A stretch of 27,776 nt of DNA from a virus. The first letter of the stretch is position 1. Each line of letters starts with the position of its first letter. A program made the translations under genes and the position numbers. Below, piece by piece: positions 92-13,061 of the stretch. Where the stretch lies: the IMG/VR virus record IMGVR_UViG_3300047444_000548, positions 1-27,776 of that record; one strand, 5' to 3'. A model generated the notes under the pieces. It had not been told where the DNA came from. It saw only the letters and a list, made by a program, of their open reading frames with translations, and did not search any database.

Positions 92-958
92 ATGCGCGTC
101 CTCCTCAGCGGCCACCGAGGCTTCGTCGGCCGCCACCTGCACGCCGCCCTGAACGCCCGGGGCGACGACGTCACCGGCGTCGACCTGATCGACGGCCGGG
201 ACGCCCTCGATCTATTCCGCTTCGACCAGCGGCCCTACGACCTCGCCATCCACTGCGCGGCAGTCGTCGGCGGCCGGGCCAGCATCGACGGCTCACCGCT
301 CGGCGTTGCCACGAACCTCGCGTTGGACTCCTGGTACTTCCGCTGGCTGATCCGCACCGGCACCCCGCGCGCCGTGTACTTCTCCAGCTCGGCCGCCTAC
401 CCGGTCGAACTCCAGCAGCCCGGCGAGATTCACCGGCTCGCCGAGACGGACATCGACTACGAGCGGCCCGGACGGCCCGACGCGACCTACGGGCTCGCCA
501 AGCTGACGGGGGAGCATCTCGCCCGGTACGCCGAAGCCGAAGGCTGCCGCGTCCACATCCTCCGGCCGTTCTCCGGCTACGGCGAAGACCAGGACGAGAC
601 GTACCCCTTCCCCGCCTTCATCCGCCGCGCACGCGAGCGGCAGGACCCGTTCGAGATCTGGGGCGACGGCAGCTCCACCCGCGACTGGATCCACATCGAC
701 GACCTGGTCGGCGCCACCCTCGCAGCCGTCGACCAGGACGCCACCGGACCGATCAACCTCGGCTGGGGCAGGGCCACCAGCTTCGACGAACTAGCCGGCC
801 TCGTCACCACGGTCGCCGGCTACCGGCCCGAGCTGAAGCACCTCGACACCGCACCCCAAGGCGTCCACCACCGAGTCTGCGATCCGAAGCGGATGCTTGA
901 CGTCTACCAGCCGCGCGTGAGCCTGGAAGAAGGCATCGCGAGGGCGCTCGCCGCATGA
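92..958 (+). CDS. NAD(P)-dependent sugar-nucleotide epimerase/dehydratase (extended SDR family)
   Basis: This 288-residue protein has the features of the extended short-chain dehydrogenase/reductase family that acts on nucleotide sugars (GDP-fucose synthase or UDP-glucose epimerase type). The N-terminal Rossmann signature GHRGFVG spans residues 7-13. A Ser run at 98-100 and the YxxxK pair Tyr133/Lys137 supply the usual catalytic residues, and STRDWIHIDDLV near residue 200 is the typical C-terminal substrate-domain motif. Length is slightly short for the family (about 310-330) but all core motifs are present. ATG 92 follows a run of G (82-86). The stop overlaps the next start in ATGA. The substrate cannot be read from the sequence. 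Together with the glycosyltransferase at 9511 it suggests sugar modification of virion or host surface, which is an inference. Confidence 0.88.
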   Translation: MRVLLSGHRGFVGRHLHAALNARGDDVTGVDLIDGRDALDLFRFDQRPYDLAIHCAAVVGGRASIDGSPLGVATNLALDSWYFRWLIRTGTPRAVYFSSSAAYPVELQQPGEIHRLAETDIDYERPGRPDATYGLAKLTGEHLARYAEAEGCRVHILRPFSGYGEDQDETYPFPAFIRRARERQDPFEIWGDGSSTRDWIHIDDLVGATLAAVDQDATGPINLGWGRATSFDELAGLVTTVAGYRPELKHLDTAPQGVHHRVCDPKRMLDVYQPRVSLEEGIARALAA

Positions 959-5576: not shown

Positions 5577-7036
5577 CTGCCTACGCCCCCGAGTTGCCGC
5601 TGACGTTCCTGTCGGACGACGAACTCGCTCTCATCGCTCTGCTCAGGGGCGACATGCTGCGCGACCGGTACGCACTGAAACTGCGGGACGCGTACTTCAA
5701 CGGCGAGCAGCTGGTGCGGGATCTCGGCATCAGCATTCCTCCTCAACTCAAGGGCCTGCACACGGTCATCGGGTGGCCGCGTGTCGGAGTCGAATCGCTG
5801 GAGGAGCGCCTCGACCTGGAGGCGTTCCGGTGGGCTGACGGCTCAGACTCCTCCGACCTGGAGGAGATTGCCGACGCCAACGACTTGTTCGACGAGTCGA
5901 GCCTGGCCCACCTAGACGCCCTCGTGTACGGCCGCGAGTATCTGGCGATCGGCTCGGGGGACTGTGGCGACGACTGCCCGCCCCTGATCACTATCGAGTC
6001 GCCGCTGGACATGACGCTGATGTGGGATGCCCGTCTACGGATGGGCACGGCCGCCTTGCGTGAGTGCGCTATGGACAACTACGTCGAGTCCGGTTCGGAC
6101 GAGCGGATGATCGTGCTCTACCTGCCGGACCAGACGATCACGGCGCTGCCCTCAGATTCGGGCGGCTGGCAGGTCATCGACCGCGACATGCACGGGCTGG
6201 GGGTCGTGCCGGTTGTGCGGCTGGCGAACCGGCAGCGAACTGCAGACCGGGTCGGCAGGTCGGAGATCACCCCGGACATCATGTCGATCACTGATGCGGC
6301 GTGCCGCCGGTTGATGGGCATCGAGGTGGCCGCCGAGTTCTTCGGCGCCCCGCAGCGCTACATCCTCGGTGCGTCGGAGTCGGCGTTCCAGGACGCGGAG
6401 GGCAACGCCAAGTCGGCCTGGGAGACGTACATCGGCCGGGTGCTGGCGCTGGAGCGGGATGAGGACGGCAACGTCCCCGATGTGGGCCAGTTCGCCGCGC
6501 ATGACCCGTCGGGCCAGACGAAGATTGTCGACTTGTATGCCCGGATCATGTCGAGTCAGTTCGGGCTTCCGCCCCACATGCTCGGCTACACCACCGACAA
6601 CCCGGCCTCCGCAGATGCCATCCGGTCGACGGAGTCCAAGCTGGTCAAGCGCAGCGAGCGGCGGATCCGGCGCTTCGGCAGGGCGTGGCAGGACGCAATG
6701 CGCCTCGCCCTGTGGGTGCGCGACGGCGTGCCGCCGGACAAGACGCAGCGCATCGAGACCGTGTGGCGGAACCCGGCGACGCCGACTGTCGCGGCTGCTG
6801 CAGACGCCACCGTGAAGCTGGTCCAGTCCGGCATTCTCCCGGCCGACTCGGACGTCGCCCTGGAAATGGCGGGGCTGACGGAGGGCCAGCGCAAGCGGGT
6901 GCGTGCGGACCGGCAGCGTGCTGCCGGCCGCGCGGGAAGCACCGCGCTGATGGACCGGCTAGCCGCGCTCGACACGGCTGGTGGCGGCCGTAGTCCGGCG
7001 CCGTCGGAGGCCGACCTTGGCATCAACAACCTCTGA
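5573..7036 (+). CDS. Portal protein (SPP1 gp6-like)
   Basis: This 487-residue protein directly follows large terminase and precedes the MuF-like and scaffold genes, the standard place for the portal. Length and composition fit the SPP1 gp6-like family. The protein opens with helices, has an acidic stem region (DLEEIADANDLFDESSLAHLDAL), and a long helical portion with Ser/Ala- and Arg-rich segments (RSTESKLVKRSERRIRRFGRAWQDA) typical of portal crown and wing regions. The portal forms the dodecameric ring through which DNA enters. GTG 5573 overlaps the terminase stop and follows AAGGGGAGGG (5560-5569). The frame is open back to 5474, but that longer form would overlap terminase by 100 bases. 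Confidence 0.92.
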   Translation: MTAYAPELPLTFLSDDELALIALLRGDMLRDRYALKLRDAYFNGEQLVRDLGISIPPQLKGLHTVIGWPRVGVESLEERLDLEAFRWADGSDSSDLEEIADANDLFDESSLAHLDALVYGREYLAIGSGDCGDDCPPLITIESPLDMTLMWDARLRMGTAALRECAMDNYVESGSDERMIVLYLPDQTITALPSDSGGWQVIDRDMHGLGVVPVVRLANRQRTADRVGRSEITPDIMSITDAACRRLMGIEVAAEFFGAPQRYILGASESAFQDAEGNAKSAWETYIGRVLALERDEDGNVPDVGQFAAHDPSGQTKIVDLYARIMSSQFGLPPHMLGYTTDNPASADAIRSTESKLVKRSERRIRRFGRAWQDAMRLALWVRDGVPPDKTQRIETVWRNPATPTVAAAADATVKLVQSGILPADSDVALEMAGLTEGQRKRVRADRQRAAGRAGSTALMDRLAALDTAGGGRSPAPSEADLGINNL

Positions 7037-7808
7037 CGGCTCGGCCTCTGCTGACAGGTGGCGCTCGGCCCAGCGTGGACTGACGCGTCTACTCCTGCGG
7101 GATCTACTGGCACTGCGGCGGCTGATCAGCCAGAACCGCCTGCAGGCGACTGTGCCTCCGTGGATCGACGCAGTGACCGAAGTCGTGACCCGCTACTCGC
7201 AGACGTCGGCGACGCTCGCTGCCGACTTCTATGACGGTGAGCGGGAGGCGGCCGGCATGCCAGGCTCGTTCGCGGTGTCGCTGGCTGATCCGCCGCCGGA
7301 TGAGCAGGTGGACTCGTCGCTGCGATGGGCTACGAAGGATCTGTGGCCGCGTGACGAGGCGGACGCGACGGTGGCCCAGTTGGAGCCGCTCGACGTCCGG
7401 CTTGAAGCGGCGATGACCAAGGCGGATTCGGTGGCGCAGAAGTTGGTCGCGGAAGGTGGCCGGGAGACGCTGCGGCAGGCGGTGAAACAGGACCGGCAGG
7501 CGGTCGGCTACGCGCGGGCCGCAGCGCTCGGAGCATGCGCCTTCTGCCGCCTTATGGCTTCCCGCGGGATGGTCTATAAGACGGCCGGCACTGCAGGTCG
7601 GGACGCCAACGAGCGCTTCAGCGGCGATGCGAGCGTGGCCAAGTTCCACAACGACTGCCACTGTGCGATCGTCCCGGTCTTCCGCGGGCAGCGCTTTGAG
7701 CTGTCTCCGCATGCTGCCGAGTGGGATCGCCTGTACCGCGAGTACGCGCAGGGCCACCCCCGAGATCAACTCCGCCTGTTCAGGCGGGCCATAGCCGAGC
7801 ACGGCTAG
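7017..7808 (+). CDS. MuF-like minor capsid protein
   Basis: The 263-residue product is helical over its first two thirds and ends in a compact domain with CAFC (Cys174, Cys177), a conserved SRGMVY turn and FHNDCHCAIVPVF (His211, Cys214, His215, Cys216). This is the pattern of MuF-type minor capsid proteins found between portal and scaffold in actinobacterial phages. They associate with the portal inside the head and are sometimes ejected with DNA; some carry enzymatic C-termini. The paired Cys and His residues may bind a metal or form disulfides. TTG 7017 was chosen because GGAGG lies six bases upstream (7006-7010). An in-frame GTG at 6981 has no ribosome binding site and overlaps portal more. 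Confidence 0.8.
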   Translation: MASTTSDGSASADRWRSAQRGLTRLLLRDLLALRRLISQNRLQATVPPWIDAVTEVVTRYSQTSATLAADFYDGEREAAGMPGSFAVSLADPPPDEQVDSSLRWATKDLWPRDEADATVAQLEPLDVRLEAAMTKADSVAQKLVAEGGRETLRQAVKQDRQAVGYARAAALGACAFCRLMASRGMVYKTAGTAGRDANERFSGDASVAKFHNDCHCAIVPVFRGQRFELSPHAAEWDRLYREYAQGHPRDQLRLFRRAIAEHG

Positions 7809-7826
7809 TCCGCGCTCCCGTTCGAC

Positions 7827-7849
7827 AAGGTCGCCCTGGTGGCGGCCTT
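7827..7849 (+). terminator. Stem-loop upstream of the scaffold gene
   Basis: AAGGTCGCC (7827-7835) pairs with GGCGGCCTT (7841-7849) through nine positions including one G-T pair, with a five-base loop, followed by TCTCATTTCC. It occupies the gap between the MuF-like gene and scaffold and could be an attenuator or an mRNA end-protecting hairpin for the capsid messages. Confidence 0.5.
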
Positions 7850-7884
7850 TCTCATTTCCACAGCCCCTGGAGGGCCGATTCGTC

Positions 7885-8535
7885 ATGCCTGAAGAGACCG
7901 AGCAGACCGAGCAGCAGCAGGAGTCCGGCGTAGAGGGCACCGTCGAGGAGACGGCCACCGCGGAACAGGACGGTACCGAGTCGACGGACGACGCCCAGGA
8001 GGCGGACGCCGACGAGGAGAAGCCGTTCGACCGGAAGAAGTTCGAGGCGGCGCTGCGCAAGAAGAACAGCGAGGCCGAGAACCTCCGCAAGCGGCTCAAG
8101 GAGCAGGAGCCGCTGCTTGCTGAGCTCAAGAAGCGCAAGGAAGCGGAGCTGTCCGAGTCCGAGCGCCTCAACGAGCAGCTGACGGCGGCGCAGGAGCAGA
8201 TCGCCAAAACCCGACAGCGGCTGGTCCGCAGTCAGGTGCAGGCCCTTGCGGGCACCGCAACGGACGACCGGCCGGCGTTCGCTGATCCTGCCGACGCGTT
8301 CGGCGAGCTCGACCTCGACTCGTACCTCGACTCTGACGGCGACATCGACGAGGCGGCCATCGAGGCCGACCTCCAGGCGCTTCTGGAGCGCAAGCCGCAC
8401 TGGGCGAAGGCCCAGCCCCCGGAGGGCCCGCGGCGTCCCGCACCGGACCGCACACAGGCGTCCGGCGCCAACAAGACACGCCCCCTCACCCCCGAAGACG
8501 AGTTCTCCGGGTGGCTTAAGTCGCAGCTCACGTAG
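7885..8535 (+). CDS. Capsid scaffolding protein
   Basis: The 216-residue protein is highly charged. It has an acidic Glu/Gln-rich N-terminus, a central coiled coil (about residues 50-115, KNSEAENLRKRLKEQEPLL and onward), an acidic segment rich in DLDSYLDSDGD, and a Pro/Arg-containing tail ending DEFSGWLKSQLT. This composition and its place immediately before the major capsid gene are typical of scaffold proteins that template prohead assembly and then leave. No protease motif is seen, so a fused maturation protease is unlikely. ATG 7885 follows CTGGAGG (7867-7873), with spacing a little long. Confidence 0.85.
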   Translation: MPEETEQTEQQQESGVEGTVEETATAEQDGTESTDDAQEADADEEKPFDRKKFEAALRKKNSEAENLRKRLKEQEPLLAELKKRKEAELSESERLNEQLTAAQEQIAKTRQRLVRSQVQALAGTATDDRPAFADPADAFGELDLDSYLDSDGDIDEAAIEADLQALLERKPHWAKAQPPEGPRRPAPDRTQASGANKTRPLTPEDEFSGWLKSQLT

Positions 8536-8554: not shown

Positions 8555-9514
8555 ATGGTGGCTACGGCCCCCCTCAAGCTGTCCGATGTCAACGCCTCAC
8601 TTCTGCCGCGCACCATCACGGCGCCGATCTTCGACAAGTCCGTCGAGCAGTCCGCGGTGATGACGCTGGCTCGCCCGGCGCCGCTCGCGATCGACGCGAC
8701 GACGTCGGTGCCGATCCCGATGGACGTGCCGCAGGCCGACTGGGTCGGACAGGCGCAGAAGAAGCCGCTGTCGACTTCCTCGGTCGGTATCAAGCAGATG
8801 ACGGCGAAGAAGCTCGCCGTGCTCATCCCGGTCGCCGAAGAGGTCGCGATGACCAACGCGGGCGGCCTGTACACGCAGCTCCAGCGGGACCTGCCGACCG
8901 CGTTCGCCCGCGCTTTCGACCACGCGGCGATCCACGGGCTCACCATGAAGGGCGCGGCCGGCCCGTTCTCCGACTACCTGGCGATGACCACCAACTCGGT
9001 GGTTCTCGGCACGTCCTCGCAGAGCACGGGCGGGATCTGGGCAGACCTGGTCAAGGGTATGGCGAAGGTGATCGACGACGACTTCGACTACACCGGTACG
9101 GTCGCCGACCACCGGCTGAAGCCGTCGCTGCTGCTGGCGACCGACACGACCGGCCGGCCGATCCTGGTCGACACGCAGACTCCGGGCACGAACATGGCCT
9201 CCGCGGGATCGCTGATCGGTGAGCCGCTGGCGTACTCCCGGTCGGTGTCGGGCAAGCAGCGCCGGCAGTCCACCAGCTCGGACTCGGGTCTGCGGGCGAT
9301 CGGTGGCGACTGGTCGCAGGCGGCCTACGGCGTGGGCATGGACATCACGGTGCGGATCTCGAAGGAGGCCACGTACATCGACGAGGACGGCGGCGTCCAC
9401 TCGGCGTTCCAGGAGAACCTGGTGCTGATCCTCGCGGAGGCCTACTACGGGTACGTGCAGGGGGACGCGTCCGCGTTCGTGAAGTACACCGGCACCCCGG
9501 CTTACGGGTCGTGA
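8555..9514 (+). CDS. Major capsid protein (HK97 fold)
   Basis: This 319-residue protein follows scaffold and fits the HK97-fold capsid family in size and pattern. It has an N-terminal arm, a hydrophobic beta segment (LAIDATTSVPIPMDVPQADWV), a spine-helix region beginning EEVAMTNAGGLYTQLQRDL with the following AFDHAAIHG, and a long C-terminal strand segment (GMDITVRISKEATYIDEDGG). It has no delta-domain beyond what scaffold supplies, consistent with a separate scaffold gene. The gene is spaced 19 bases from scaffold with GAGAAG before ATG 8555. Its stop overlaps the glycosyltransferase start. It forms the icosahedral shell and would be the obvious target if virions are glycosylated. Confidence 0.92.
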   Translation: MVATAPLKLSDVNASLLPRTITAPIFDKSVEQSAVMTLARPAPLAIDATTSVPIPMDVPQADWVGQAQKKPLSTSSVGIKQMTAKKLAVLIPVAEEVAMTNAGGLYTQLQRDLPTAFARAFDHAAIHGLTMKGAAGPFSDYLAMTTNSVVLGTSSQSTGGIWADLVKGMAKVIDDDFDYTGTVADHRLKPSLLLATDTTGRPILVDTQTPGTNMASAGSLIGEPLAYSRSVSGKQRRQSTSSDSGLRAIGGDWSQAAYGVGMDITVRISKEATYIDEDGGVHSAFQENLVLILAEAYYGYVQGDASAFVKYTGTPAYGS

Positions 9515-10539
9515 CGCAGGCCCGCGGCGGCGGGAAGGGTGGCCGGGCGATGCAGGTCGTCGCCCGGCTGCACGCCGCCCCGCCCCGGCACAACGCTGGG
9601 GCGGAGTGGATGGCCTGGTCGATGTTCCGTGCTCTCATCGAGCGCGGGCACGACGTCACAGTGTGGCTGTCGCGGTATGGCGAGGACCACCAGCCGTATG
9701 AACTGGACGGCGTGAAGGTGATCCCGTTGGAGTCGCGTCTGGACTGGGTGACGGCAGTTCGCCGGGCAGACGTTCTGGTGTCGCATCTGGAGAACGTGAA
9801 GCCGACGGCGGCCTTGGCGCGCGGCTACGGGAAGCCGTTCGTGGCGATCTGCCACAACACGTTCCTGCCGACATTCAAGGACATGGCGTCCGGCGGGACT
9901 GCCCTCGCGGTCTACAACTCGGTGTGGATGGAGCGGGAGGCTGAGCTGTACTTCGCGGACTATCCGAAGTCGGTCCGCCCTGACACGTCGATGATCGTGC
10001 GGCCTCCGGTGTTCGCGGAGGACTACGCGACGAAGCCGGGCGACCGGATCACGCTGGTCAACACCAACCCGGACAAGGGCGGCGGGCTGTTCCACGATCT
10101 GGCGCAGCGGATGCCCGACCGGAAGTTCCTCGCGGTGATGGGCTCCTACGGTGAGCAGGCCGACTACTCGGACCTGCCGAACGTCGAAGTCGTCCAGCAG
10201 GTCTCCGGCCACGAGATGCGGGAGGCGGTGTACAGCCGCACGAAGGTGCTGCTGATGCCGTCGTTCTACGAGTCGTGGGGTCGCGCTGGCGTGGAGGCTC
10301 TGGCGAGCGGCATTCCGGTCCTCGCCCACCCGACGCCGGGCCTGTGCGAGTCGCTGGCCGAGGGCGGGATCTTCCTGGAGCGGCAGGATCTCGACGGGTG
10401 GGAGGCGGTCCTGCGGAAGCTGCAGACGCCCGCCGAGTACCGGTTGGCGTCCAAGCGGGCGAAAGCCCGTAGCGCTGAGCTGGATCCGACGGCGGAGCTT
10501 GCCGCATGGTGTGATGCCGTGGAGGCCTTGGCCCGATAG
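9511..10539 (+). CDS. Glycosyltransferase (GT-B fold, GT4-like)
   Basis: This 342-residue protein has the two-domain layout of GT-B glycosyltransferases. The first Rossmann strand and Gly-containing loop are VVARLHAAPPRHNAGAEW, and the C-terminal donor domain includes LVNTNPDKGGGLFHDLAQRM, VLLMPSFYESWGRAGVEAL (the E-x7-E type site) and GIPVLAHPTPGLCESL. It would transfer a sugar from a nucleotide donor. The gene overlaps the capsid stop (GTGA at 9511) and precedes the head-tail adaptor, so it is expressed with capsid genes. An alternative start at ATG 9550, behind GGGAAGGG, would begin right at the first strand. Target and sugar are unknown. Virion protein glycosylation by phage enzymes is known in actinobacterial phages, and position makes that the favoured hypothesis. 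Confidence 0.88.
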   Translation: MTQARGGGKGGRAMQVVARLHAAPPRHNAGAEWMAWSMFRALIERGHDVTVWLSRYGEDHQPYELDGVKVIPLESRLDWVTAVRRADVLVSHLENVKPTAALARGYGKPFVAICHNTFLPTFKDMASGGTALAVYNSVWMEREAELYFADYPKSVRPDTSMIVRPPVFAEDYATKPGDRITLVNTNPDKGGGLFHDLAQRMPDRKFLAVMGSYGEQADYSDLPNVEVVQQVSGHEMREAVYSRTKVLLMPSFYESWGRAGVEALASGIPVLAHPTPGLCESLAEGGIFLERQDLDGWEAVLRKLQTPAEYRLASKRAKARSAELDPTAELAAWCDAVEALAR

Positions 10540-10547
10540 GAGGCGTC

Positions 10548-10964
10548 GTGACGTTCGTCCCGCCCACTGTTGAGCAACTCGGCCTGTTCCTGGCGCTGGA
10601 GGAGATCGACGGCAATCGTGGCGACTTGCTGATCGCGTCTGCGGTTTCCCTTGCCCAGACGATCGTGAAGCCGCTACCGGAGGGCGCGGAGGCTGTCGTC
10701 CTGTCGGTGGCGGGTCGCGCTTACGTGAACCCGCAGCAGGTGGCTTACGAGACGATCGGCCCTATGTCGGTGCAGCGCCCCAGCGGAAGCGGCGGCCTGT
10801 ATCTGACGAAGAACGACAAGGCCGCACTCAAGTCCCTCGCGGGGCGCGGCGGAGCGTTCACCGTTGACCCGACTCCCGCTACTGCGGACCCGTCGCCGAC
10901 GTGGCCGCTTGACCAGGTCACTGGCTGGTCGGAGGACTATGAGGCGGGCTGGGGGTATCCCTGA
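10548..10964 (+). CDS. Head-to-tail adaptor protein
   Basis: The 138-residue protein begins FVPPTVEQLGLFLALEEID, the helical opening common to head-to-tail adaptor (connector) proteins. It has a helix rich in Ala/Leu (ADLLIASAVSLAQTIV type segment), then a Gly/Ser/Pro-rich turn and a tail ending in WSEDYEAGWGYP. These proteins sit below the portal ring and link it to the stopper. GTG 10548 has a clear TAGGAGGCGTC site eight bases upstream of the start. It is one base short of the next gene (TGATG overlap). Assignment rests on order and general pattern. Confidence 0.75.
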   Translation: MTFVPPTVEQLGLFLALEEIDGNRGDLLIASAVSLAQTIVKPLPEGAEAVVLSVAGRAYVNPQQVAYETIGPMSVQRPSGSGGLYLTKNDKAALKSLAGRGGAFTVDPTPATADPSPTWPLDQVTGWSEDYEAGWGYP

Positions 10965-11326
10965 TGCCCGCCCCGTACCCCTTCGGGGAGACAGTGCGGA
11001 TCTTGCGGACCGGGCAGTCGACGGGTCGTGGGCCGCGCGGTCAGCCGCTGCCCGGCCCTGACGAGTCTTTTGATCTGGTGGGCTGCGTGGTCACGCCGCG
11101 GGCGGAGACGCCCCAGGTGGGAGGGGATCAGCAGCAGGCGAGAGACACCGTCATCGTCGGCTGGACCGTGTACGCCCCGGCCGGAAAACCGGTACGGACC
11201 ACGGATCAGGCGATGGTTCGCGGCGTGAGATGCGACATCACCGGCGAGCCAGGCGACTGGGGCCGCAGCCCGTTCACCGGCACACGTGGGCCGATTCAGT
11301 TCGCAGCCGACCGGGTGACCGGCTAG
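10964..11326 (+). CDS. Head-to-tail stopper / connector protein
   Basis: The 120-residue product follows the adaptor with a TGATG overlap at 10962-10966. It is rich in beta-forming segments (DTVIVGWTVYAPAGKPV, then MVRGVRCDITGEPG) with Gly/Pro turns, as expected for a small beta-barrel connector that closes the head after packaging. Position second after the capsid block fits the stopper role. Its stop codon overlaps the stop of the opposite-strand gene within the CTAG at 11323-11326, so the two genes converge without a gap. No catalytic motif. Confidence 0.7.
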   Translation: MPAPYPFGETVRILRTGQSTGRGPRGQPLPGPDESFDLVGCVVTPRAETPQVGGDQQQARDTVIVGWTVYAPAGKPVRTTDQAMVRGVRCDITGEPGDWGRSPFTGTRGPIQFAADRVTG

Positions 11327-11643
11327 CTGCGGGCCTGCTCGACAGCAGCAACCAGCTTCTCTGCCGCGTCGTTGCTCGTGCGCGGAATGGACAGGCTGTG
11401 CGGGTCCGTATAGGGCGGTCGTCCGCCGAGCATGAGGCCGGTCTTCTCGCCTGCGGCCGTGCTGCCCGGGAGGACGAACTGCACGTAACCGTGGACCAGT
11501 CGGGTGCCGGCCTTGAAGCGGGTTCCTGTGATGTCGGCTGCCCGGATGCGAACCGGCGCCGGGCGCGGCCCGACAGGTGTCTTGGTGATGGTGACCCATT
11601 CCCCGTCGAAGGTGATCGTTCCCAGTACGCCCTTAACGTCCAT
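11323..11643 (-). CDS. DUF4429-like protein encoded against the structural operon
   Basis: On the minus strand this 106-residue frame reads a compact beta-rich domain: VLGTITFDGEWVTITKTPVG, then RIRAADITGTRFKAG, LVHGYVQFVLPG and a C-terminal helix (NDAAEKLVAAVEQA). I recognise this order (G.ItFDG..VtI, a second strand pair, hGYiQFv.pG, Asp/Pro turn, helix) as DUF4429, a family frequent in Streptomyces and sometimes in their phages, with a PH-like predicted fold and no established function. ATG is at 11641-11643 with a G-rich site (GGGGGC) five bases ahead on the minus strand. Its own promoter must lie within the short divergent space or inside the next gene. It behaves like a cargo gene (moron), possibly expressed in the lysogen. 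Confidence 0.72.
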   Translation of the reverse strand: MDVKGVLGTITFDGEWVTITKTPVGPRPAPVRIRAADITGTRFKAGTRLVHGYVQFVLPGSTAAGEKTGLMLGGRPPYTDPHSLSIPRTSNDAAEKLVAAVEQARS

Positions 11644-11676
11644 GTCCGCCCCCAGTTGCGTGATGTTGGAGGGGCT

Positions 11677-12012
11677 ATGGGAGCACGGTTCAAGATGTCC
11701 CGTAAAGGCGTCGGCCAGTTGCTGCGTTCACCGATGGTGCAGGCGGAGATGCTCCGCCGCGCCGAGGTGATCAAGGGGATCGCCGTGGCGACGTCCCCGG
11801 TCGACATCGGCGGCCCGCACCCCGGCCTCTACGCGGGATCGTGGGAGGCGGACAGCACCTCCCGTGGCGGCCGGAATCGGGACCGCGCGGTTGGCTACGT
11901 CCGCAACGGCACCTACTACGCCCGCTGGGTGGAGTACGGCAACGGGCCTGGCGGCGGGCCCGCCCACCACGTGCTGCTGCGGGCGGCACTGCAGGGCGGG
12001 CGGAATCAGTGA
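11677..12012 (+). CDS. Tail completion / HK97 gp10-like protein
   Basis: This 111-residue protein has the features of HK97 gp10-like proteins. It has an N-terminal helix (MVQAEMLRRAEVIKGIAVATSPVDIGG), a Gly/His-containing beta turn and the YYARWVEYGNGPGGGPAHHVLLRA segment (the conserved A.wvEyG motif) near the C-terminus. Such proteins complete the head-tail junction. ATG 11677 was taken because TTGGAGGGG (11667-11675) precedes it. The frame is open much further upstream, but that region is covered by the antisense gene. The stop overlaps the next start (GTGA). Confidence 0.82.
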   Translation: MGARFKMSRKGVGQLLRSPMVQAEMLRRAEVIKGIAVATSPVDIGGPHPGLYAGSWEADSTSRGGRNRDRAVGYVRNGTYYARWVEYGNGPGGGPAHHVLLRAALQGGRNQ

Positions 12013-12401
12013 CCGCTCTCGTCGACATCGAGCTGGAGCTCATCACCCGCGCGACCGCTCGCTTTCCGGACGCGGTAGTACGGGACGAGTTGGACAACAA
12101 TCTCGCAAACGAACTGCCGACTATCCAGATCGAGCAGATCCCCGGCGGCAGCGACGACGGGCTGAAGTTGAGTCGGGCCATCGTCGACATCAACGTGTTC
12201 GCGGCGACCAGGGCTGACGCCATAGCCCTCGCCAACGAGGTGCACAGTTGGGTGACCGGCGAACTCCGCGGGTCGAGCAGCGCCCAGTCGGTGATCGGCC
12301 GAACCGGGAGTTTCGCACTGCCCGCGCCTCGTCCCTACGAGAACGTCTCGCTCCGCCGTGCCGGGGCGACCTACGAAATCTTCTGCCACCCGGTCTCCTG
12401 A
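12009..12401 (+). CDS. Tail terminator protein
   Basis: The 130-residue product starts at GTG 12009 overlapping the previous stop. It shows a helix (VDIELELITRATARFPD), a beta segment with PTIQIEQIPGG, a second strand with SRAIVDINVFAATRADAIALANEVHSWV and a C-terminal strand pair (YENVSLRRAGATYEIFCHPV). This alpha-beta order is typical of tail terminator proteins that cap the growing tail tube. The gene lies between the gp10-like protein and major tail protein, the standard place. Length (130) is normal. Confidence 0.8.
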   Translation: MTALVDIELELITRATARFPDAVVRDELDNNLANELPTIQIEQIPGGSDDGLKLSRAIVDINVFAATRADAIALANEVHSWVTGELRGSSSAQSVIGRTGSFALPAPRPYENVSLRRAGATYEIFCHPVS

Positions 12402-12412
12402 CGACCGGTTCT

Positions 12413-12452
12413 GGGCCCGCGCCGGACCCTGTACCCGCCCGTGCGCGGGCTC
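12413..12452 (+). terminator. Stem-loop upstream of the major tail gene
   Basis: GCCCGCGC (12415-12422) pairs perfectly with GCGCGGGC (12443-12450), extended by a G-T and a G-C pair, with a 20-base loop and TCTTCC after it. It sits in the 72-base gap before the major tail gene and may act as an attenuator or mRNA-stabilising end. Confidence 0.45.
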
Positions 12453-12473
12453 TTCCATGTCTGGAGACATCTC

Positions 12474-13061
12474 ATGGTCAACATCACCCGCGCCGCGGAC
12501 CTCGCTCTGGTGGGTGCGAACGGCGGCGGCTTCGTGGCCCCGGTCGGTTCGACCGCGCCTGCCTCCCCGCTGATCCAGCCCGTCTCGCCGTGGGAGCCGC
12601 TCGGTGCGATCAGCGACGACGGCCTGACCTACGGGTTCGACGAGGACTCCCAGGAGTTCACGCCGTGGGGCCTCACCAGCCCGTTCCGCACCCAGATCAC
12701 GAAGTCGGTGCGCACGTTCAAGCTGACGGTCTGGGAGACCAGCCGCACCGTGGTGCAGTCCCTGCAGTACCGGCTCGACAGCAGCGACCTGCTCCCGGAC
12801 GAGGACGGCCTCACCAAGTACGCGGAAACGTCGAGCCCGATCCCGGACCGGCGCGCGTTCTGGTTCATCGTCGTGGACGGTGAATCCTTCCGGGGCTTCT
12901 ACGTCCCCCAGGGCGAGATCAACGACCGCTCCGACGTCTCCTTCAAGCAGGACGAGATGTCCGGCTACGAGTGGACGATCACCACCTACCCGGACGAGTC
13001 CGGGAACACCGTGTACCACTGCGACAAGCTGCCCGCCACGCCCGTCTACTCGGGCTCCTGA
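12474..13061 (+). CDS. Major tail protein
   Basis: This 195-residue protein is placed between tail terminator and tail chaperone, the fixed location for the major tail (tube) subunit. It is acidic and beta-rich with a Gly/Pro loop early on (VGSTAPASPLIQPVSPWEPL), strand segments FRTQITKSVRTFKLTVWE and FWFIVVDGESFRGFYVPQGEI, and SGYEWTITTYPDESG near the end. ATG 12474 follows TCTGGAGAC (12460-12468); the frame is open to GTG 12441 but that lies within the stem-loop. It builds the flexible tail tube together with the tape measure. Confidence 0.88.
   Translation: MVNITRAADLALVGANGGGFVAPVGSTAPASPLIQPVSPWEPLGAISDDGLTYGFDEDSQEFTPWGLTSPFRTQITKSVRTFKLTVWETSRTVVQSLQYRLDSSDLLPDEDGLTKYAETSSPIPDRRAFWFIVVDGESFRGFYVPQGEINDRSDVSFKQDEMSGYEWTITTYPDESGNTVYHCDKLPATPVYSGS

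Follow-up and report, generated by a model that had tools for sequence, protein, structure and literature searches.

A position antisense to the lytic genes has been described as characteristic of phage morons (PMC7067206). The tab gene (tail assembly blocker) of Pseudomonas phage JBD26 is a small moron on the minus strand between the terminase genes of the late operon, at a constant junction; it has its own promoter, is expressed from the prophage and blocks tail assembly (PMC10884400). Tab is described as accompanied by anti-tab and without similarity to proteins of known function. The tai genes belong to non-contiguous operons, in which they are oriented against the late genes; overexpression of Q lowered their expression (PMC11364771). 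In phage phi80, tai is an accessory gene opposite to the late operon and is expressed in the prophage state, and the tai genes covered in the same source mostly lie upstream of the packaging module in phages. Furthermore, PH-domain proteins sit in phage lysogeny modules (PMC2817789), one of them carrying the name sie285 (PMC6127208). These PHb proteins, i.e., ORF2/sie285 of Lactococcus bIL285, ORF124 of ul36 and ORF77 of Min1, come from temperate phages and belong to or resemble PF08000. We found no paper naming DUF4429 in open-licence PMC full text.

Here we analysed a DUF4429 (PF14472) gene in a viral stretch of 27,776 nucleotides (IMG/VR record IMGVR_UViG_3300047444_000548), called the window below. 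Like tab, it is a small minus-strand gene at a constant junction of the late operon, and like tai of phi80 it is an accessory gene that runs opposite to the late genes inside their operon, which is the non-contiguous operon layout. However, it is located between the head closure gene Hc1 and the neck gene, not between the terminase genes as tab or upstream of the packaging module as most tai genes; its product has a predicted PH fold, and no partner is inserted with it. A PH-like domain and a temperate phage are what it has in common with the PHb proteins, whereas those are PF08000 or similar proteins of the lysogeny module and the DUF4429 gene belongs to the head-tail operon. Antisense morons in late operons are a known kind. 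What is new is the presence/absence pattern at one junction and in one orientation, together with the DUF4429 family, the slot and a shift in the start codon of the neck gene.

Layout of the locus

The original prediction had described a minus-strand DUF4429-like gene, carried as antisense cargo among head-tail genes of the opposite orientation, which shares a CTAG with the stop of its upstream neighbour and leaves 33 bases to the next plus-strand start. Our analysis bore out all of this (Table 1). Pfam returned DUF4429 at 35.1 bits against a cut-off of 25 (positions 2-95 of 95), the PHROG-matched neighbours were all on the plus strand with the gene on the minus strand between Hc1 and neck, and the neck ATG at 11677 follows a spacer of 33 bases (11644-11676). 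The Hc1 stop TAG occupies 11324-11326 and the DUF4429 stop is the complement of CTA at 11323-11325. In the copies collected from relatives (see below), the overlap with Hc1 was 4 nt in 63 of 78 and 11 nt in 14, and one copy was clear of it. GGGG was found no more than 16 nt upstream of the aligned DUF4429 start in 76/77 copies, and the neck start of the carriers was preceded by G at -9 (78/78) and at -6 (77/78). The window is GC-rich and holds many meaningless minus-strand reading frames besides the DUF4429 frame; a chance frame was ruled out here by conservation, codon-position pattern and Pfam score.

Table 1. Features at and around the Hc1/neck junction, in window coordinates
Feature	Position	Strand	Basis
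Single-domain DUF4429 (bacterial PH-like) protein gene, 106 aa	11323..11643	-	ATG start; Pfam; conservation; PH-fold model (predicted)
CTAG common to the convergent stops of Hc1 (+) and the DUF4429 gene (-)	11323..11326	.	sequence
Ribosome-binding-like GGGGGCGG, 5' of the minus-strand ATG	11646..11653	-	sequence
Divergent spacer, 33 bases, with both ribosome-binding sites and without recognisable promoter	11644..11676	.	sequence, promoter scans
Neck-gene ribosome-binding site GGAGGGG	11668..11674	+	sequence
Head closure Hc1, left flank of the optional cassette	10964..11326	+	phrog_501 4.7e-17
Neck / tail completion protein, right flank of the cassette	11677..12012	+	phrog_5 1.6e-9, phrog_387 8.9e-9
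Head-tail adaptor Ad1	10548..10964	+	phrog_137
Tail terminator	12009..12401	+	phrog_123
Major tail protein	12474..13061	+	phrog_117
Major head protein	8555..9514	+	phrog_10

Among the junctions compared, Hc1/neck is the variable slot: the interval between the major head protein and Ad1 measured 1029-1668 nt in 99/99 junctions having both genes, and that between Ad1 and Hc1 measured 3-19 nt in every junction listed. The gaps between neck and tail terminator were also short, with 2 exceptions among 185. In the window, the space between the major head protein and Ad1 is filled by a GT4-type glycosyltransferase gene (9511-10539, plus strand). Its identity is known from the window only; it looks like a core gene because an interval of similar size was kept in all 99 junctions, and it perhaps serves capsid glycosylation. 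A gene for an NAD-dependent epimerase/dehydratase (92-958, plus strand) lies near the left contig end and may be linked to the glycosyltransferase or be host-derived cargo.

Distribution among related phages

The DUF4429 protein as query retrieved 63 viral-contig loci and nine genome loci, eight of the latter from Streptomyces; the ninth (L073), which is alphaproteobacterial and 29% identical, was excluded. Both flanks were present in 69 of these 71 rows, and the gene was antisense at Hc1/neck in 69/69. Loci were added by querying with Hc1 (80 kept of 164) and with the neck protein (80 kept of 148). The whole set, to which the locus of the window itself and three phage records also belong, comprised 230 loci, and the 223 with both flanks gave 125 distinct junctions. 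The gene was carried at 78 of the 125, a share inflated by the DUF4429 query; rows with both flanks that came from flank queries only had carriers in 43/79 (Hc1) and 39/80 (neck). In every carrier it was antisense and exactly between Hc1 and neck, with an Hc1-neck interval of 340-362 nt, while the 47 empty junctions had 8-70 nt. The original prediction had proposed looking for relatives without the gene at exactly this junction, and these 47 are such relatives; an extra gene is thus found in some close relatives only, at the same place. An assembly artefact or a one-off insertion was ruled out by the 78 distinct junctions.

A second set was drawn from 392 Streptomyces genomes, 16 of which matched a phage-type profile. 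Four of the 16 (G001, G002, G004 and G006) were already in hand, and stretches from the other twelve were examined. Seven of the twelve showed the order of the window, i.e., major head protein, Ad1, Hc1, antisense DUF4429 gene, neck and tail terminator; in one of the seven (L273) the DUF4429 gene was split between frames. Four of these seven loci lie in contigs longer than 7 Mb and are therefore integrated in chromosomes. In the remaining five stretches (28-50% identity), none of the flanking genes was detected within the stretch examined. At L272, a single-domain relative (5956-6309) is 50% identical, none of the flanking query genes occurs in 12.3 kb, and the neighbours tested had no Pfam or PHROG match.

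The 50,697 phage records searched contained no match to the neck protein, and among the isolates of that collection this phage group therefore appears to be unrepresented; Hc1 had two weak matches there.

DUF4429 genes were also found in Arthrobacter phages. Among the matches listed, 27 of 29 Arthrobacter phage records gave an alignment that spans most of the protein, with 33-39% identity, and the other two matched over 45% of it with E near 1. The two proteins that we tested, gp27 of phage Andrew and CDS0026 of phage Cupello, exceeded the DUF4429 cut-off (34.3 and 34.1 bits). Like the window protein, both have a single DUF4429 domain with the GY-x-F and DPH motifs and come from integrase-bearing phages; unlike the window gene, which is inside the head-tail operon, they lie outside the structural genes. 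In Andrew, a series of leftward genes, among them the immunity repressor and integrase genes, converges with the endolysin region, and the DUF4429 gene is the penultimate member of this series; in Cupello it closes a similar leftward series with an integrase. These distant Arthrobacter phage genes (L074, 9992-10303; L075, 5773-6306) adjoin a small gene whose annotation is DNA binding protein. In a Streptomyces locus (L268), a DUF4429-SHOCT gene (5911-6465) is upstream of a large terminase gene (7201-8493) on the same strand. Together with the Arthrobacter placements, this indicates that DUF4429 occurs in several unlike contexts in actinobacterial phages.

Selection, gain and loss

Purifying selection acts on the conserved protein that the DUF4429 gene encodes. 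Mismatches between copies were distributed as 0.21/0.18/0.41 over the three codon positions, and the median NG86 dN/dS was about 0.29 (398 of 400 sampled pairs). No internal stop was found downstream of the matched start in any of the 78 copies; the L062 copy extends upstream only in another frame and was counted as broken, leaving 77/78 intact. The frame recovered from the 63 viral-contig and eight Streptomyces loci is conserved, in support of the original prediction.

Slot and orientation are fixed, and presence changes repeatedly at exactly Hc1/neck. In a 125-row tree built from Hc1, neck and tail terminator, the presence state changed at least 26 times, 17 of these changes being forced by supported branches, and shuffled presence labels needed 37.9 changes on average. 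A tree of the major head protein (96 rows) gave at least 24 changes, 17 forced; in both trees the counts comprise gains and losses together, and recombination between the flanks would give the same pattern. Searching 27 of the phage records with an empty junction (47 empty junctions in all), we found DUF4429 elsewhere in none, so the gene is dispensable; relocation in empty phages was not seen in these 27 records. Remnants at empty junctions were few. L117 has an in-register copy of the first 11 bases of the cassette, above the shuffle maximum, and L210, with a 70-nt junction, retains pieces of both gene ends, namely an in-register suffix of 16 bases and, close to the start of the cassette, a match of 14 bases, which looks like the result of a recent internal deletion. 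In L148, L094 and others, end-piece matches were not clearly beyond those in shuffles, and for this reason most empties are not callable as losses.

Family and predicted fold of the protein

The phage protein had no match in PHROGs, in PADLOC or in a sequence search of the PDB. A structure model from 56 sequences (mean pLDDT 85.5, pTM 0.78; residues 65-72 unsure) predicted strands at 2-4, 8-12, 16-21, 31-34, 40-44, 52-57 and 83-86 and a helix at 88-105, which is the seven-stranded sandwich capped by a C-terminal helix of PH-like proteins. The top Foldseek matches in the PDB were PH domains, led by bacterial 3hsa (probability 1.00, E 5.4e-3), though E-values were modest and none was <= 0.001. 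Structural alignment with VIA gave Z 9.5 for MTMR6 (2yf0; residues 4-100, rmsd 2.1, 81 aligned) and Z 8.3 for 3hsa (rmsd 2.5, 87 aligned). As to PF08000, a Pfam scan at E up to 10 returned only PF14472, and the fold search ranked 3hsa and the DUF1696 protein 3dcx high. The model thus strongly suggests that the product is a single PH domain.

DUF4429 was present beyond the phage copy in 8/8 Streptomyces genomes searched, mostly in tandem-domain proteins, in agreement with the Streptomyces association predicted for the family. The two host proteins that we examined have two DUF4429 domains (161-172 bits) and a SHOCT match at the C terminus just under the cut-off. PF14472 is common to the chromosomal and the phage proteins, but the phage protein, with its 106 aa, one DUF4429 domain and no SHOCT, is not of the host tandem type.

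Start codon of the neck gene

The neck gene started with ATG in 78/78 carriers, while the 47 empties were divided between ATG (24) and GTG (23). Among 17 independent pairs on supported branches, ATG went with presence in 7.2 and against it in 0 (median p 0.016). The start codons of Hc1 and the tail terminator showed no such trend with cassette presence, and that of Ad1 showed a weak one in the same direction (5.3 pairs for and 1.3 against, median p 0.22). Empties would rely on translational coupling from the Hc1 stop, at a distance of 8-70 nt, and this coupling would not be available to carriers; we propose that the constant ATG of the carriers arose because the cassette breaks the coupling to Hc1 translation. 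The association may partly reflect the cassette and the neck start moving together. The neck codons behind the start were not more conserved in carriers overall.

Promoter and expression signals

No sigma70-type promoter was found in 10900-12500 by a scan that covers actinobacterial promoters poorly, no terminator consensus was found for the DUF4429 gene, and there was no terminator-like site between the convergent stops. Neither the position-by-position comparison of carriers and empties nor motif counts gave a DNA-level promoter motif common to all carriers. TANNNT occurred in 23/78 carriers and 4/47 empties; with a spacer the count was 24/78, below the shuffled expectation of 44.6. TTG-N16-18-NANNNT was found in 19/78 carriers and 2/47 empties, against 8.0 in shuffles. 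In 18 carriers with GATG at the neck start (e.g., L050, L060 and L119), TTGGAC-N17-CATCAT lies on the minus strand upstream of the DUF4429 gene in the sequences read. It is a possible candidate promoter, not common to the other carriers.

Possible role of the DUF4429 protein

We consider it moderately probable that the gene is a moron, i.e., an optional antisense accessory gene at a fixed late-operon slot, expressed in the lysogen, whose PH-fold product would act there and would most likely be protective. The protein is probably made during lysogeny, as are the products of known anti-phage cargo genes. Transcription of the gene from the repressed prophage would not depend on the late genes, and, in a non-contiguous operon such as that of tai, late transcription after induction would run through it and turn it down. 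The PH protein might then act by binding the membrane, a phage component or a host partner; protection against other phages would be its most likely effect, and an effect on the host envelope the next choice. This lysogen and anti-phage reading is our best inference because tab and tai have the same architecture. No counter-gene travels with the DUF4429 gene, unlike in tab and some tai systems, and the 340-362 nt cassette holds nothing else; self-sparing would therefore need another route.

The envelope could also be the whole story. As a moron without anti-phage action, the DUF4429 domain would imitate or pair with the tandem DUF4429-SHOCT proteins of the host and change its envelope or stress response. 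This is consistent with the host DUF4429 proteins in all eight genomes, with the two domains and near-threshold SHOCT of the two examined, and with the link of bacterial PH proteins to envelope stress (PMC2817789). However, the distance between the phage protein and the host domains is large (35.1 bits vs 161-172 to the DUF4429 model), and we regard this explanation as unlikely.

Less probable still is that the protein arrests the assembly of other phages at the neck stage while a matched neck allele spares its own phage. The tab-like architecture fits it, and in the 58 of 78 carriers used for distance correlation, DUF4429 distances correlated best with the neck protein (r 0.35, permutation maximum 0.23), ahead of Hc1 (0.20), tail terminator (0.20) and Ad1 (0.08). 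However, the same correlation would result from simple linkage between neighbouring genes, the C-terminal half of Hc1 is close behind (0.26), and the 47 empty junctions have similar neck proteins. It would be a long shot to see in this protein a new PH-domain anti-phage factor that binds the neck protein of other phages and stops head-to-tail joining, in Hc1/neck an undescribed immunity slot of actinobacterial phages, and in the neck ATG a compensation for broken coupling.

A lytic-cycle role, in which the gene would have its own minus-strand promoter and aid particle assembly or DNA entry in an accessory capacity, agrees with its location among assembly genes and its strong ribosome-binding site. 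It is quite improbable to us, as the gene runs against the late operon and is absent from 47/125 junctions and from 27/27 searched empty records, and its Arthrobacter phage relatives run in the repressor/integrase direction. Finally, overlapping convergent stops without a terminator-like site mean that the transcripts probably overlap, but that the minus-strand RNA is the important product, as an antisense regulator of Hc1 or neck with the protein incidental, is very improbable given the codon-position pattern and dN/dS of 0.29, which show selection on the protein.

If the DUF4429 gene is a protective moron as we favour, it belongs with the lysogen-expressed genes antisense in late operons that are a source of prophage defences, and to our knowledge few of these are known in Streptomyces phages. 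Close relatives with and without it at one junction are numerous and serve as natural controls, so that the function of this uncharacterised PH-like family can be tested directly. Likewise, the changed start codon of the neck gene lends itself to studies of how a phage copes with an insert that interrupts translational coupling.
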